Virus record (IMG/VR): IMGVR_UViG_3300022752_000037
Span: 1-64,000 of that record
Source of the DNA: a virus
Reading direction: 5' to 3' (one strand)
DNA length: 64,000 nt
Shown: positions 3,203-9,838 of the stretch, in pieces
How the letters are laid out: each line of letters begins with the position of its first letter
Numbering within the stretch: the stretch's first letter is position 1
Translations under genes and position numbers: made by a program
The notes under the pieces: generated by a model
What the model saw: the letters and a program-made list of their open reading frames with translations, nothing else
The model's database searches: none
What the model was told of the DNA's origin: nothing

Positions 3203-3210
3203 TATTTATT
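3203..3210 (-). promoter_or_regulatory. Late-promoter-like box
   Basis: AATAAATA on the minus strand, one base from the T4 late consensus, lies 22 bases before the ATG at 3180, with AAAGGAG between. It overlaps the TAA of the gp41 gene. Confidence 0.5.
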
Positions 3211-4603
3211 AGGTCATGTTGTTCAGTAGCTGTCTTAATTTTGTGCTTTCAACCTGCGCTGTGCTTCGCACAGTCGTGCCTTCTCTTGGGTCCACAGCAG
3301 CAGTTCTTTGTAGGTTGTTCAGTATGGAGCCAGCACGACTCTGTGTGTTCTCATCTGTCTGTGCATCTTCGCCTGGGTCTGTGATTCTCAATGTATCCAC
3401 GTTGAACTCAAGATCAATCTTCTGTCCCACACCGCTTGAACTACGTGTTTTCATCAGCTGTATTTGGTATCGTCCACGTTCACGCATAGCTCTTGATGTA
3501 AAGATGCCAAAAACGTTGTCCGCAGTCTGTATCTTGCTTAGTCCGCCACTGATATGGCTATGATCAAATTCCACTTCTTCCACTGCGCCGCGATTAAGCT
3601 GACTGGCCGTTACCAGTATGCAGTTCTTTTCCACAGCTAGGTTTCTAAGCTCTTCGCTCACATACTTGTCTTTAACAAACAAATTCTCCGCACTGATTCT
3701 CTTACTGATTGGCATCAATAAGTCCAAGTAGTCTACCAGTAGCACATCTACTCTGCGAGCTAGCTTGATTTCATATTCTTTTAGATAGCTGCGTATGTCA
3801 TTAGCAGTCTTACCCGATGGCATGTATTTGACCTGATAAGTTCCGGACTTCTTACCAATTACTCGTACACGCATTTCAACTTCGTCGATCTGTCGAAAAA
3901 TGTCTCTACTGGCTATTTCAGTAACCATACTGTCCACACGCATACTCACAAGTTCTTCGCTCAGTTCCAATGTAAGATAAACTACATTTAAACCTTGCAG
4001 TGCCCAGTTTACACCGAGATTGGCCAGGAACAAGCTCTTACCCGCACCCGATCCTCCTGCAAAGATGTTCAGTTCTCCCTTGTTCATACCTCCGAACAGT
4101 CTCTTGTCCACAGTAGTCCAGCCTGTGCTAATCTGTCCGTTTTTGTCTTTAATACGCAGTAGCCTAGCACGAGGGTCAGCAAAGTAGTCTGTGCCCATGT
4201 CTTTGGTCAGACCCACTTGTACAGCCTGCTTGACTAGATCTTCCACTGGACCATATTCTCCCTTTTCCAGTAGGTCTGCACTCTTTAGAATAGCACGTTC
4301 TAGACCTTTATGCCTAATGAATGTTTCAAAGTCCTGTAGCAGCCAATCATAGTGTTCTTCTCTCAGTTCGCCAGGGTTTGAAAATTTATTCACTGTGGCT
4401 GCATTAACGATGTCAAAGGTAGGTAGTATGTTATGTTCTACCACATAGTCGTTTATGAACCTAGCTGCTGATTGTAGTCGTCGATCAAACAGTTCCGGAT
4501 CAAAAATGCTTTGGCAGCGTACAAAAGTCTCTGCATCAGTCAGCATCATTTCGATGTATAATTTCTGTATGTCATAGCCGTAGTCTGCGTTTTGTTTTGT
4601 CAT
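3209..4603 (-). CDS. 41: Replicative DNA helicase (T4 gp41, DnaB-type)
   Basis: A 464-residue hexameric 5'-3' helicase of the DnaB/RecA fold that unwinds DNA at the fork together with primase gp61. Residues 1-150 form the helical N-terminal domain. GWTTVDKRLFGG introduces the RecA core, with Walker A GGSGAGKS at 183-190, Walker B VLLVDYLDLL near 290, and a SQLNRG motif. The length is close to T4 gp41 (475). Its ATG overlaps the stop of the carbamoyltransferase gene (ATGA, 4600-4603). Primase is encoded two genes upstream, as expected for a primosome unit. Confidence 0.95.
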   Translation of the reverse strand: MTKQNADYGYDIQKLYIEMMLTDAETFVRCQSIFDPELFDRRLQSAARFINDYVVEHNILPTFDIVNAATVNKFSNPGELREEHYDWLLQDFETFIRHKGLERAILKSADLLEKGEYGPVEDLVKQAVQVGLTKDMGTDYFADPRARLLRIKDKNGQISTGWTTVDKRLFGGMNKGELNIFAGGSGAGKSLFLANLGVNWALQGLNVVYLTLELSEELVSMRVDSMVTEIASRDIFRQIDEVEMRVRVIGKKSGTYQVKYMPSGKTANDIRSYLKEYEIKLARRVDVLLVDYLDLLMPISKRISAENLFVKDKYVSEELRNLAVEKNCILVTASQLNRGAVEEVEFDHSHISGGLSKIQTADNVFGIFTSRAMRERGRYQIQLMKTRSSSGVGQKIDLEFNVDTLRITDPGEDAQTDENTQSRAGSILNNLQRTAAVDPREGTTVRSTAQVESTKLRQLLNNMT

Positions 4604-6054
4604 GTAAAAACCTTTGTGTTGTATTGTTTTTCAAAGCGTCGAGCATCTAGCCTATCATTTACCATAGGTTCTCCTCGAATATTAAGACTAGTATTAAGTA
4701 ACATAGGGCACCCTGTAGTATCATGCCATAATTCCAATAATCGTCTTATACGACTGCCATCCTTGGGCACCGTTTGAACTCGACTAGTTCCGTCAGCATG
4801 GATTATAGCAGGAAACAGTTCGGGATGTCTACACTTACTGGTGAACTGCATATACCTATGATGCTCGGCTCGGCCTCTTATATCAAAATGTTCTTTGGCA
4901 TATTCTTCTAACACCACGGGAGCAAATGGCCTAAACTGTTGTCTTTGTTTTATACCATTAACACGATCTTTAACATCGGGACCTCTTGGGTCGGCCAGTA
5001 GGCTACGATTACCAAATGCTCTAGGTCCATATTCGGCTGCTCCTTGTGCCACTCCACAGATTCGGTGTTGTTGTAAGTATAGAACAATATCTTCAATGGT
5101 GTCTTGTGGTTCTATCGCATAGCCTAAAAACGGTGTAGTCCATGGTATATGCTCTTTGGTCACTGCTAAGACTGATCCTACTGCTGAACCAGCATCACCA
5201 GGGTTAGGCAAGATCCAAACATCGTCAAATAGGCCAAATGCTAGACTATTAGCTGAACAATTAAGGGCGCAGCCGCCCATTAATACAAGATTCGTGCTAT
5301 TAGTAAGATGTTTTCCTAAGTATAAAATATTTTTAAATAGCTCTTCGTAGACACGTTGAGTTCCTGCTGCTATGTCATAGATATCTGCAATACCTAATTC
5401 CGGTGCCCAATCCCTACATCCTCGATGTAAGTTCTGTCGAAAAGTAAAATTTTCAAAACTTTCCACAAAGTCTGATCCGATACGCGGTGCCAATTTTCGA
5501 GCTTGACCATAAGCAGCCATGCCCATTAAAATATATTCTTCTTCATTAGGTTTGAGTCCAATACGTTGCGTCATTGCACTATACCATAGACCTATACTAT
5601 GAGGATATCGTTGGCTGTAAAGTTTTTTAAGCATTCGGCCCTTGGCCTGCCAAATAGTTATAGTTTCAAATTCGCCAATAGCGTCTATGACAATCACACA
5701 GGCTTCTTCAAATTGACTGGTATAGTAACCAGCCGCAGCATGGCTATGATGATGGTAAACTGTTTGATAAGGGCAGGTAATATTATATCGTTTAAGATAA
5801 GGAGCTACTCTATTGTCTTTAAAACCCTGTCCTGCTTGGAATTGCCGTAGTGTTTTAATCCATGGACGTTCATACCAAATAACTTTATCTGGTTCTCCGA
5901 ATTGTTTGGCATGATTAACGAGATCTAAACATAGATCGGGGTCGTTTTTTACTCTACTGAATCTTTCACTGTGACTAGCAAAGACAAGATCATGTTCTTT
6001 AAAAACAGCCAGAGCAGCATCATGGCTGTTAGCACTTATGCCCCAAGTAATCAT
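4600..6054 (-). CDS. Carbamoyltransferase, NodU/CmcH family
   Basis: A 484-residue O-carbamoyltransferase. Enzymes of this family make carbamoyladenylate from carbamoyl phosphate and ATP and carbamoylate a sugar or antibiotic hydroxyl. The N-terminal Kae1-like domain opens with GISANSHDAALAVF. HHHSHAAAGYYTS at about 101-113 holds the metal-binding histidines, and VLMGGCALNCSANS and EYGPRAFGNRSLLADPR are family signatures. The C-terminal domain contains MLLNTSLN. It lies between helicase and primase genes, overlapping its neighbours by four bases on both sides. The phage substrate (modified base, glycan or host metabolite) cannot be read from sequence. Confidence 0.93.
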   Translation of the reverse strand: MITWGISANSHDAALAVFKEHDLVFASHSERFSRVKNDPDLCLDLVNHAKQFGEPDKVIWYERPWIKTLRQFQAGQGFKDNRVAPYLKRYNITCPYQTVYHHHSHAAAGYYTSQFEEACVIVIDAIGEFETITIWQAKGRMLKKLYSQRYPHSIGLWYSAMTQRIGLKPNEEEYILMGMAAYGQARKLAPRIGSDFVESFENFTFRQNLHRGCRDWAPELGIADIYDIAAGTQRVYEELFKNILYLGKHLTNSTNLVLMGGCALNCSANSLAFGLFDDVWILPNPGDAGSAVGSVLAVTKEHIPWTTPFLGYAIEPQDTIEDIVLYLQQHRICGVAQGAAEYGPRAFGNRSLLADPRGPDVKDRVNGIKQRQQFRPFAPVVLEEYAKEHFDIRGRAEHHRYMQFTSKCRHPELFPAIIHADGTSRVQTVPKDGSRIRRLLELWHDTTGCPMLLNTSLNIRGEPMVNDRLDARRFEKQYNTKVFT

Positions 6055-6167
6055 TTATAAATGAAAGGATCCTGTTCCTGTAGTTCTTTTAGTCTACGTT
6101 CAGCTAGTTTGCGTCTTTTATATTGTTTATACGGATAGCTAATCCAATCCCAAAATTTCTTAAACAT
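6051..6167 (-). CDS. Short basic protein between primase and carbamoyltransferase
   Basis: A 38-residue ORF, beginning MFKKFWDWISYPYKQYK and ending DPFIYK. A perfect AAAGGAG lies seven bases before the ATG at 6167, inside the primase 3' end. Its TGA overlaps the carbamoyltransferase start (ATGA at 6051-6054). It has an aromatic/basic N-terminus followed by a strongly charged helix. From memory, similar small proteins occur near replication genes in marine T4-like phages. Function is unknown. Confidence 0.72.
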   Translation of the reverse strand: MFKKFWDWISYPYKQYKRRKLAERRLKELQEQDPFIYK

Positions 6168-7173
6168 TTAAATCTCCTTTCAACCACTGTTTCATATGTA
6201 GTCTTATCTTTAGTTCTGTTCTGTATGTTGACGTTAATATCATATGTAATGTTTTTAATCTTCCGTATTTAACCACTGCTTCATTTATATCTTTACAAAG
6301 TTGCCAATCAGGAAAACTCACTGTCCAATCGTGTTCAATGGCCTGTTTAATAATTTTAGGGCCTTCGTGATCCTTATCTGGAACCACAATGACTTCGCGA
6401 TCTAGTTTTTTTATTAGTTGGATCTGTTGTGGGGATAATTCGCTGCCAAGTATGGCCACACCATCAATGCTAATGGCGTCAAATGGTCCTTCACAGACTA
6501 TGACAAATTTTCGTTGATAGTTTTGATTATCAAGATTAAAAACAAAGCCAGGTTGTTGTTCACTGATATACTTGGGTTTATGATCGTAGATTCGTCTAGC
6601 TGTATATCCTACAATTTGTCCTTGATATCGAAATGGAATAATGATTCTATCTGCATAATTAGGTGACCAATAGAAGTCCCAGTCAAATGGGTCAGCAAAT
6701 CCTCTATTGACTGCGTAGTCAATGATGCTGAGATATTGAGCTCCCAGTTCTTGTTCTATTTCTCCCTGCATAATATCTGTCCAATCTTTTAGAGTCATAG
6801 ATAATTGAGGTAATTCTCTAGAGGAAAATTGTGGAATACTAGTTGTATAGGTATTTTTTTTTAATTCATCTTTTAGTTTAAGACTTTCCAATGAGCATTT
6901 ACTGATCAGATCATCTGACACATTGAGCCAATGTAAGAATTTTTTAAATTTGCTAGTTAGAGGTCTGCCTGGTTGCCAACTTGTTTTAAACTGACAGTTA
7001 AAGCAATGGTAGCTTACACTGTCTGCGTTAAATATAACGCCACCACGTTGTCTAGTATCTTGGCCAGTACCATTATGGTGACAGCACACCGCGTTGAAAC
7101 TGTGCCATCCACTGGGTGTACTTTTATGTCTATAAGGTATATGTTGTCTTACAGTGTCTATGATTAGGCTCAT
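6160..7173 (-). CDS. 61: DNA primase (T4 gp61-like)
   Basis: A 337-residue primase that makes RNA primers for lagging-strand synthesis with gp41. The N-terminal zinc-binding region has CCHH at about 30-33 and CFNC at 57-60. The Toprim part contains FVIVCEGPFDAIS (the catalytic Glu) and IVVPDKDHEG (the DxD-type pair). The length matches T4 gp61 (342). The 3' end overlaps a small gene whose ribosome site lies within this reading frame. Together with gp41 it forms the primosome. Confidence 0.92.
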   Translation of the reverse strand: MSLIIDTVRQHIPYRHKSTPSGWHSFNAVCCHHNGTGQDTRQRGGVIFNADSVSYHCFNCQFKTSWQPGRPLTSKFKKFLHWLNVSDDLISKCSLESLKLKDELKKNTYTTSIPQFSSRELPQLSMTLKDWTDIMQGEIEQELGAQYLSIIDYAVNRGFADPFDWDFYWSPNYADRIIIPFRYQGQIVGYTARRIYDHKPKYISEQQPGFVFNLDNQNYQRKFVIVCEGPFDAISIDGVAILGSELSPQQIQLIKKLDREVIVVPDKDHEGPKIIKQAIEHDWTVSFPDWQLCKDINEAVVKYGRLKTLHMILTSTYRTELKIRLHMKQWLKGDLNV

Positions 7174-8006: not shown

Positions 8007-8014
8007 TATTTATA
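8007..8014 (-). promoter_or_regulatory. T4-type late promoter
   Basis: A perfect TATAAATA on the minus strand, 18 bases before the ATG at 7988, with AAGG in the leader. In T4 this element is recognised by the gp55 sigma factor with gp33 and the sliding clamp. The box touches the start codon of the divergent gene at 8014. Confidence 0.8.
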
Positions 8015-8391
8015 TGGTTAAATTAAGACAAAACATAACAGACCAGCTACCTTTTATATCAGTTTTAAATTATGGAGATGAAGAATACGTTGGTATAATA
8101 ATTAATCAAGATCAATTTGTCACATGTTTTTTTGATCTTTCTATGCTACGTAGTCCCGAAGAAAAAAGTAATCTATTAGAAATAGGTGAGATATGGTGGT
8201 GGGAAAGTAATCGTCAAATACCTATAAGTATATTTTGTCGTAAAGAAGTGGAACCCTTTAAGTATGCCATTAAAACTTTCAATAGTAAAGATGTACGAGT
8301 TATACTAGGACCCACGGTCAATCTTATGAACATGACTCTCAAACGAGTAAAACGTCGTCAAGTTCAATTAATAAGAGCCATAAAAAAGTAA
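8014..8391 (+). CDS. Unrecognised protein, isolated plus-strand gene
   Basis: Not recognised. The product has 125 residues, mostly beta in the first 85 residues (EEYVGIIINQDQFVTCFFDL, EIWWWESNRQIPIS), with a strongly basic C-terminus (LKRVKRRQVQ and RAIKK) that could bind nucleic acid. No convincing Shine-Dalgarno precedes the ATG, and the start is shared with the late box of the divergent gene. It ends exactly where the opposing gene ends (stop codons abut at 8391/8392). Confidence 0.65.
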   Translation: MVKLRQNITDQLPFISVLNYGDEEYVGIIINQDQFVTCFFDLSMLRSPEEKSNLLEIGEIWWWESNRQIPISIFCRKEVEPFKYAIKTFNSKDVRVILGPTVNLMNMTLKRVKRRQVQLIRAIKK

Positions 8392-8967
8392 TTAGTATTC
8401 ATAGCTAATAGATTCGCAGATAAGATTCATTTGAACCACGATAGCTGTAGCATAAGCAACGGCGTGAGATTTTTTAAAGTAGTATTCATCGTTATCGGGT
8501 TTTATCCATACTTCGTTCATCACCGTGGTCCATTCTTTGCCAATCAGATAGCGTTTCGCGGGGCGTATCAGGGCCAAAACTGCCGCTAGTTGGTCTATCG
8601 TTCTTGGCTTCATTTTTCTTAGGATTGAACCATGTCCGTTGACGTGAAATAGCAAGTTGACGAAATCGTCCTGTTCCAGTAAATCCCATAGTGGTTCAGT
8701 CTCCATAAGTTGAATAAGATGTTGTTCATTCTTAACGCCTTTATAGATGTTAACATTGAGAAAATCAATTTTAAAGTATCCTCTTTTCTCTGCCTGTTTA
8801 TAGTCAATATTAGCCAAATTTGTTATAGGGTTATAGGGAATGTCAGTAAAGTAAACACCTGTATTATGTTTTCGCAACGATTCATTATCATTAATACTTG
8901 CTGTGATATGTTTAAAGTGTGCCAATGCCTTCGATCTGTCAGCAAAATCTATGTCAATATCGGGCAT
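8392..8967 (-). CDS. Miniature DNA polymerase III alpha (DnaE)-like protein
   Basis: A 191-residue protein containing, in order, the hallmark blocks of C-family polymerases. These are PDIDIDF at 2-8 (the DnaE block with two catalytic Asp), HNTGVYF at 34-40, FKIDFL at 65-70 (the third catalytic Asp), MKPRTIDQLAAVLALIRPAK at 119-138, and KKSHAVAYA at 165-173 (the NKSHA block). It lacks the PHP domain, most of the fingers and everything after the palm-like core, so it is about one sixth of bacterial DnaE. Whether it polymerises is unknown. Its ATG overlaps the previous stop (TAATG). It could instead be a decoy or accessory protein. Confidence 0.75.
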   Translation of the reverse strand: MPDIDIDFADRSKALAHFKHITASINDNESLRKHNTGVYFTDIPYNPITNLANIDYKQAEKRGYFKIDFLNVNIYKGVKNEQHLIQLMETEPLWDLLEQDDFVNLLFHVNGHGSILRKMKPRTIDQLAAVLALIRPAKRYLIGKEWTTVMNEVWIKPDNDEYYFKKSHAVAYATAIVVQMNLICESISYEY

Positions 8968-9149
8968 TAGTGTTTTACCTCTGAGTGGAATAACATCAAG
9001 GGCAAATGATCTGTTAAAAATTCTGCATAATCATCAGCATCTTCTACAGTGTTAAAACCAGTTAATTTTACGTATAAAGTTTTGTCTGTCTCTGAAAGTA
9101 TAATTTCCATACTTATATTAGCTTCTACAAGATCTGTTGCAACGTTCAT
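8967..9149 (-). CDS. Small acidic protein, unrecognised
   Basis: Not recognised. The product has 60 residues and is acidic, with a beta-beta-alpha look (EIILSETDKTLYVKLTGF, then DADDYAEFLTDHL). It is translationally chained on both sides: its start overlaps the upstream gene (9146-9149) and its stop overlaps the DnaE-like start. The tight coupling to the DnaE-like gene hints at a shared task. Confidence 0.65.
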   Translation of the reverse strand: MNVATDLVEANISMEIILSETDKTLYVKLTGFNTVEDADDYAEFLTDHLPLMLFHSEVKH

Positions 9150-9838
9150 AGATCTGCCTCCTGGACTATACGTCTCACTAGATCCAAATCAAATGTTTGA
9201 GTTTTAAACTTTTTTACCCAAACTGTAGGATCTATAATATTACTTATAGAAGATAGCTGATCATCTCTTAGACTAGATAATAATTCTTTGCCAGTTGGTG
9301 AATTTAGAATAAGCCAAGGACTAACTTTGCCGTCTTTTATATCGTATGAAGCTCGATTACTGCTCACATATCTAAAGTAATGATTCCATAGACTATTATT
9401 ATCCTTAGCCCAGGATTCCATGTGAGTGATGGATCTTTCCAAAGCGGTTTCTACACTTTCTGTATGTATTAAATTTACCACATACTTTTCATATAATTCC
9501 TCTCTGCACCAGTGATCTAATTTAACTCCACTTTTTACTACATAGTCTATAAATTTATTCGGATACAAGGGATTTACATTAGATACAAAGCTACCAAATT
9601 TTACAAAAGCGTTATAGTATTGACTTCGAGCAAATTCATCAAAGGTCTTATTTTCTTTAGAGTTTTGAGTAAGTTGATAAAATCTATTGTAAGTTTGAAA
9701 CCCTGCCACAGTTGCTCTATCGTTTTTAGCATAGTATCTTCTCTTAGTTTCACACATATGAACAGTAAGAGTTTTTTCTTGTGTAAAACTGCTTTTACAA
9801 TATTGACAGGTATATTTGCTCACACTTAAGTTTAACAT
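9146..9838 (-). CDS. Zinc-finger-bearing protein of unknown role
   Basis: A 230-residue protein. The N-terminus has C-x2-C-x12-H-x-C spacing (YTCQYCKSSF...VHMCE, residues about 10-30), a C2H2/C2HC-like zinc finger likely to bind nucleic acid. The rest is helical with many aromatics and no motif I recognise. It overlaps the next gene by four bases. Its position among replication genes suggests DNA metabolism, but that is inference. Confidence 0.7.
   Translation of the reverse strand: MLNLSVSKYTCQYCKSSFTQEKTLTVHMCETKRRYYAKNDRATVAGFQTYNRFYQLTQNSKENKTFDEFARSQYYNAFVKFGSFVSNVNPLYPNKFIDYVVKSGVKLDHWCREELYEKYVVNLIHTESVETALERSITHMESWAKDNNSLWNHYFRYVSSNRASYDIKDGKVSPWLILNSPTGKELLSSLRDDQLSSISNIIDPTVWVKKFKTQTFDLDLVRRIVQEADL

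Follow-up and report, generated by a model that had tools for sequence, protein, structure and literature searches.

A DnaE-like protein of large T4-like phages as the probable catalytic half of a split, minimal C-family DNA polymerase

The polymerase-half locus and its neighbors

The window, a stretch of 64,000 nucleotides taken from the viral record IMGVR_UViG_3300022752_000037 (95,263 bases in all), carries at 8392..8967 on the minus strand a gene for a 191-aa protein which is probably the C-terminal half, with the residues that bind Mg2+ and template, of a Pol III alpha that is both split and minimal. Length and strand agree with a first-pass annotation made from the letters of the window alone; its proposal that the product is a DnaE-like C-family protein is borne out by a family match to phrog_11778, an AlphaFold2 model and the fold matches of that model in the PDB. 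The phrog_11778 match ("DNA polymerase") extends over the full length of the protein (E = 2.3e-70) and is accompanied by weaker matches to the large phage C-family polymerases phrog_405 and phrog_12219, while the Pfam Pol III fingers domain gave E = 0.003, which is below the cut-off. When the protein was used in tblastn, 103 phage records matched at E <= 0.01, with at least 80% of its length covered in 90, among them RaK2, 121Q and other Asteriusvirus, PA5oct/Paride, Atu_ph07, Phosso, XacN1, SCTP-2 and Munch; IMG/VR adds over 550 stretches that encode relatives. Similarity of this degree goes well past what chance would give, and length is conserved among the homologues (188-221 aa). In Atu_ph07, the RefSeq start of the homologue (NC_042013 gp074, 8073-8567) is placed 81 bases after the conserved one (7992) and is probably mis-called; as annotated, gp074 lacks the catalytic DxDxD motif.

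Directly upstream, a 60-aa ORF (8967..9149, minus strand) overlaps both of its neighbors, sharing TAATG with the polymerase half and ATGA with the gene of a 230-aa zinc-finger protein (9146..9838, minus strand; phrog_11058, E = 1.7e-63), in which C11, C14, H27 and C29 form a C2HC motif. The coupling of the polymerase gene to these two genes, noticed in the first pass, thus holds in the window, with stop/start overlaps at 8967 and 9146-9149. The fate of the two genes in other phages is quite different. The 60-aa gene has no informative Pfam match and is sporadic (51/157 relatives), and it was rejected as part of the system for that reason. The phrog_11058 gene lies upstream of the C half in 145 of the 148 relatives with room for it, its Cys and His residues are conserved in about 155 of 160 proteins, and we regard it as a candidate partner, or third subunit, of the polymerase. 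Alishewanella phage Slickus01 has what is likely a divergent version of it, of 206 aa, with a weak match (E = 0.04).

On the other side lies a convergent gene for a 125-aa protein (8014..8391, plus strand; phrog_11637), which ends against the stop codon of the polymerase half. This arrangement recurs in 146 of 150 relatives with room, the gene running up to or into the 3' end of the polymerase half; it is unusual as a single opposite-strand gene within a co-directional replication block. To that block belong a gp61-like TOPRIM DNA primase (6160..7173, minus strand; Pfam Toprim_2, 6e-8; phrog_47, 2e-42), found near the C half in 124/129 relatives, and a DnaB/gp41-like replicative helicase (3209..4603, minus strand; Pfam DnaB_C, 8e-20; phrog_19, 6e-69), as well as a UvsW-like helicase, UvsX and terminase. 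Between primase and helicase stands a nodulation-type carbamoyltransferase gene (4600-6054, minus strand; Carbam_trans_N/C, phrog_1601), which is near the same place in just 56 of 115 relatives. The C-half block of 121Q and RaK2 likewise includes UvsX and UvsW, together with a DnaQ-like or putative exonuclease. Stenotrophomonas phage CM1 and Xanthomonas phage XacN1 have the C half outside its usual context, with no recognizable phrog_11058 or primase gene adjoining it; in XacN1, a gene for a DnaQ-like epsilon subunit lies about 2.3 kb downstream.

A C-family metal site in a much reduced protein

All five motif blocks named in the first-pass annotation were found in the ORF, collinear with DnaE. 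In order along the protein, they are PDIDIDF (8944..8964), the HNTGV block (8854..8868), which is the counterpart of E. coli HAGGV at 511, the KIDFL block (8758..8772), the IRPAK block (8554..8568) of the fingers core, equivalent to E. coli FRPGP at 638, and the KKSHAVAYA helix (8449..8475), equivalent to E. coli NKSHSAAYA, all on the minus strand. Residues were numbered against E. coli DnaE as read from the K-12 genome, in which the three Asp of PDFDVDF are, in order, D401, D403 and D405, followed by K553-F-D555 and by H760 within NKSHSAAYA. The earlier statement that all three catalytic aspartates are retained was correct, as was the pairing of D68 with D555. The pairing of D5 and D7 with D401 and D403 was rejected, being off by one Asp in DxDxD relative to E. 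coli DnaE and to the published numbering (PMC3919608): the equivalents are D3 and D5, with D7 corresponding to D405 and, in the KIDFL block, K66 to K553. D401, D403 and D555 are absolutely conserved across the C family, and the D405 position is Asp in DnaE and Asn in PolC (PMC3919608), so the Asp at this position makes the phage protein DnaE-like rather than PolC-like.

Conservation was assessed in an alignment of the window protein with 169 homologues (170 sequences, 140 distinct). Twelve positions are identical in 170/170 C halves: the aspartates D3, D5, D7 and D68, which thus do not vary in any homologue, together with H34, G37, P44, K66, R135, P136, K138 and H168. The C half therefore contains the DxDxD and KxD metal site as well as a shortened fingers region.

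The extent of the reduction is evident from motif spacing. From DxDxD to HxxGV there are 31 residues in the C half compared with 110 in E. coli, where this stretch holds the thumb; the approximately 79 residues absent before the HNTGV block are presumed to span the DnaE thumb, with the boundary placed according to the E. coli structure. From IRP to KSH, within the fingers, there are 33 residues compared with 121, and the segment holding E. coli R709/R710 is lost. With the thumb and this fingers segment gone, classical processive synthesis is doubtful. Spacing was used in place of a global hhalign alignment of the joined halves to DnaE (the second half is described below), in which the N half and DxDxD were aligned well and the last block was misaligned because of the deletions. 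Searches of the 191-aa protein gave no Pfam matches for PHP, thumb, (HhH)2, the clamp-binding motif or OB; the loss of PHP, most of the fingers and the C-terminal domains, as first proposed, is borne out by these searches, the motif spacing and the size of the protein. Also absent from the 191 residues is GRGS (GRGSS), the motif with which C-family enzymes hold the incoming nucleotide; in relatives it is on a separate N half.

The fold itself was predicted with high confidence. AlphaFold2, run on the C half with 89 family members, gave a pLDDT of 93.7 and a pTM of 0.84, and in Foldseek PDB matches 1-15 of this model were all Pol III alpha or C-family chains, with Thermus PolIII alpha best (E = 3e-4) and M. 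tuberculosis and E. coli DnaE among the 15. The prediction thus supports the palm (Pol beta-like) fold on which the first reading had staked its case. The global fit is moderate (TM-scores by query 0.37-0.54, rmsd mostly 6-11 Å), as expected where whole domains have been deleted, and sequence-profile matches to PDB entries are weak and split into blocks.

The complementary half of the palm

A search with PF07733 revealed a second small ORF in 11 of 11 complete GenBank phages tested. Its products (phrog_11127, 161-183 aa) carry an invariant G-x-G-R-G-S, in which the motif residues R137, G138 and S139 are the same in 94/94 sequences. This N half maps to residues 321-392 of E. coli DnaE, most members ending at EFLR or EFLK (E. 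coli residue ~392), and the C half resumes with DxDxD at 401. The cut falls immediately ahead of PDIDIDF, the C half beginning exactly at the M of SM/PDIDIDF, where the phrog_11127 protein stops. An AlphaFold model of one N half had a pLDDT of 91.3, and its 12 best PDB matches were all C-family. By their motif content, their ends and their fold matches, the N and C halves complement each other as parts of a single palm that is cut at one loop.

With a profile built for the N half, a match was found in 8/8 IMG/VR records of at least 223 kb that have the C half, and sometimes in smaller fragments that have it. Both halves are thus present in all 19 records tested that are complete phages or at least 223 kb long (11 GenBank and 8 IMG/VR), and both are near-invariant at active-site positions. 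Counted by genus, GenBank matches to the N half and to the C half are nearly the same in number, at 34/34 for Escherichia, 11/11 for Pseudomonas, 10/11 for Klebsiella, 8/8 each for Salmonella and Erwinia, and 3/3 for Xanthomonas. The two genes are far apart in the genome: among 170 C-half and 94 N-half sequences, neither half was found in the locus of the other, and no natural fusion was seen among these ORFs, none being longer than about 221 aa. Pairwise distances of N and C halves are correlated (r = 0.86), but those of any two genes of such phages might be, and the correlation is given no weight here. In 121Q, RaK2, Atu_ph07 and Paride, a few genes separate the N half from the gp44 clamp loader, and in Phosso it is close to an AAA-ATPase gene.

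These phages also encode a family-B polymerase. PolB (PF00136) was detected in 18 of 19 records, the exception being the window's own, so that coexistence of the two polymerase types, implied when the first-pass annotation set its protein beside the B-family enzyme of T4-like phages, holds in all 18 relatives. One IMG/VR record of 561,116 bases has both polymerase halves and the family-B polymerase on a single phage contig.

In the 95-kb record of the window, neither PF07733 nor the N-half profile gave a match, and PolB (PF00136) was not found. This record is collinear with the first ~100 kb of a 270-kb relative (C half 77% identical) in which PolB is located at 165 kb and the N half at 191 kb, both past the stretch covered by the window's record. 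Their absence is expected of such a fragment, which is most likely why the partner is lacking, and the presence of the N and C pair in the window's own phage is inferred from its relatives.

A probable two-subunit polymerase

Taken together, these results make it probable that the window protein supplies the catalytic C-terminal half of a DnaE-type DNA polymerase of the C family that is split and minimal, with two subunits and a role in short synthesis at the fork. As judged from sequences and models, it is very likely the Mg2+-binding half of a thumb-less enzyme that exists beside a T4-like family-B replicase. The two proteins would dock so that GRGS, holding the dNTP phosphates, and the Asp triad, holding two Mg2+, make up one palm active site in trans, yielding a polymerase of about 360 residues without thumb, PHP or clamp motif. 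With less assurance, the pair may be proposed to synthesize DNA at the phage fork in short stretches or distributively, extending primers before hand-off, filling gaps or taking part in repair, and to work alongside the T4-like primase-helicase and clamp loader, with bulk synthesis left to the family-B enzyme. In Bacillus subtilis, DnaE extends primers for PolC, and the primer-extension role is likened to this division of labor by analogy only. The fullest version of the proposal, a palm site completed in trans and lacking a thumb, in a dedicated primer-extending or gap-filling enzyme placed between primase and family-B replicase and possibly having the zinc-finger protein as third subunit, is tentative, with slightly less than an even chance of being right.

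The strongest competing account keeps the two subunits and changes the substrate: a DnaE core re-purposed as a nucleotidyltransferase that acts on something other than primed DNA, as in template-independent end addition, action on RNA or tRNA, or nucleotide signaling. Little DNA-binding surface would be left once thumb, PHP, HhH, OB and clamp motif are gone and the fingers shortened, and a PolB replicase is already at hand in these phages; however, the residues of template and fingers (IRPxK, KxH..Y) show no more variation than the metal ligands, and both genes are located among replication genes, which makes this account unlikely.

Less probable still is that the 191-aa protein adds nucleotides alone, as a stand-alone minimal polymerase or terminal-transferase-like enzyme. 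All of the metal-binding residues are there, in a confidently predicted fold, but the split runs inside the palm and leaves half of the active site missing. The complete mini-enzyme envisaged in the first pass is not upheld, since in every complete relative checked the GRGS half of the palm is a separate product, and the active unit is for this reason likely to be a two-subunit enzyme. The decoy for host clamp or tau that was suggested at the same stage, widened here to any regulator without catalysis that binds these or phage replisome proteins, fares worse and appears very improbable: the protein is extremely reduced, and small proteins are common as phage host-takeover factors, but the DnaE regions that bind clamp and tau are absent, and an Asp triad and Lys invariant in 170/170, with GRGS in 94/94, point to catalysis. 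A decaying fragment of a captured host dnaE, to which truncation relative to DnaE and the description of the phage CBB N half as 'truncated' (PMC5259590) might lead, has next to no likelihood, being already contradicted by length, synteny and catalytic residues conserved across very divergent phages.

The split polymerase thus preferred resembles three sets of known systems to different degrees. Bacterial DnaE has in common with it the equivalents of D401, D403, D405, D555 and K553 and the IRP and KSHxxAYA blocks of the fingers. The E. coli enzyme, however, is one polypeptide of 1160 aa, whereas the phage version consists of two proteins of about 170-190 aa each, with the fingers largely deleted and PHP, thumb, (HhH)2, clamp motif, OB and C-terminal domain gone. 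Single-chain phage C-family polymerases (phrog_405, 1190 aa; phrog_12219, 823 aa; the DnaE-like protein of Streptomyces phage) share palm and fingers, phrog_405 matching both halves weakly and the other two matching one or both, but they are unsplit, larger and from other phage groups. The third is the minimal Pol III alpha that Iyer et al. 2021 (PMC7824862) described by computation as split in group 2.2 jumbo phages; they arrived at the same proposal and suggested that it may help to copy one strand or act in repair. From that system (phrog_11778 C half, phrog_11127 N half), nothing essential differs here: the Mg2+ and template residues are on the C half and the other Pol III domains are absent, and in the relatives the NTP-binding N half is on a distant gene and PolB is in the genome, both of them missing from the window's 95-kb fragment. 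We take the CBB paper (PMC5259590) and the Atu_ph07 paper to have noted earlier what appears to be the N half. A literature search, with most subscription journals outside its reach, found no experimental or biochemical study of the split polymerase.

The kind has therefore been in print since 2021 as a genome-based prediction, and what is added here is confirmation along with sharper detail that can be tested, namely the exact split point, the residue numbering, the invariance counts and the neighbor statistics. The split polymerase is widespread in giant phages. Should an active enzyme form from its halves, the C family would have in it an exceptionally small polymerase in which, unusually, a single active site is divided between two genomically distant gene products. 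The case is relevant to the question of how much of Pol III alpha catalysis needs, to the claim that the split form models an ancestral one (PMC7824862), and to why large T4-like phages retain two unrelated polymerases.
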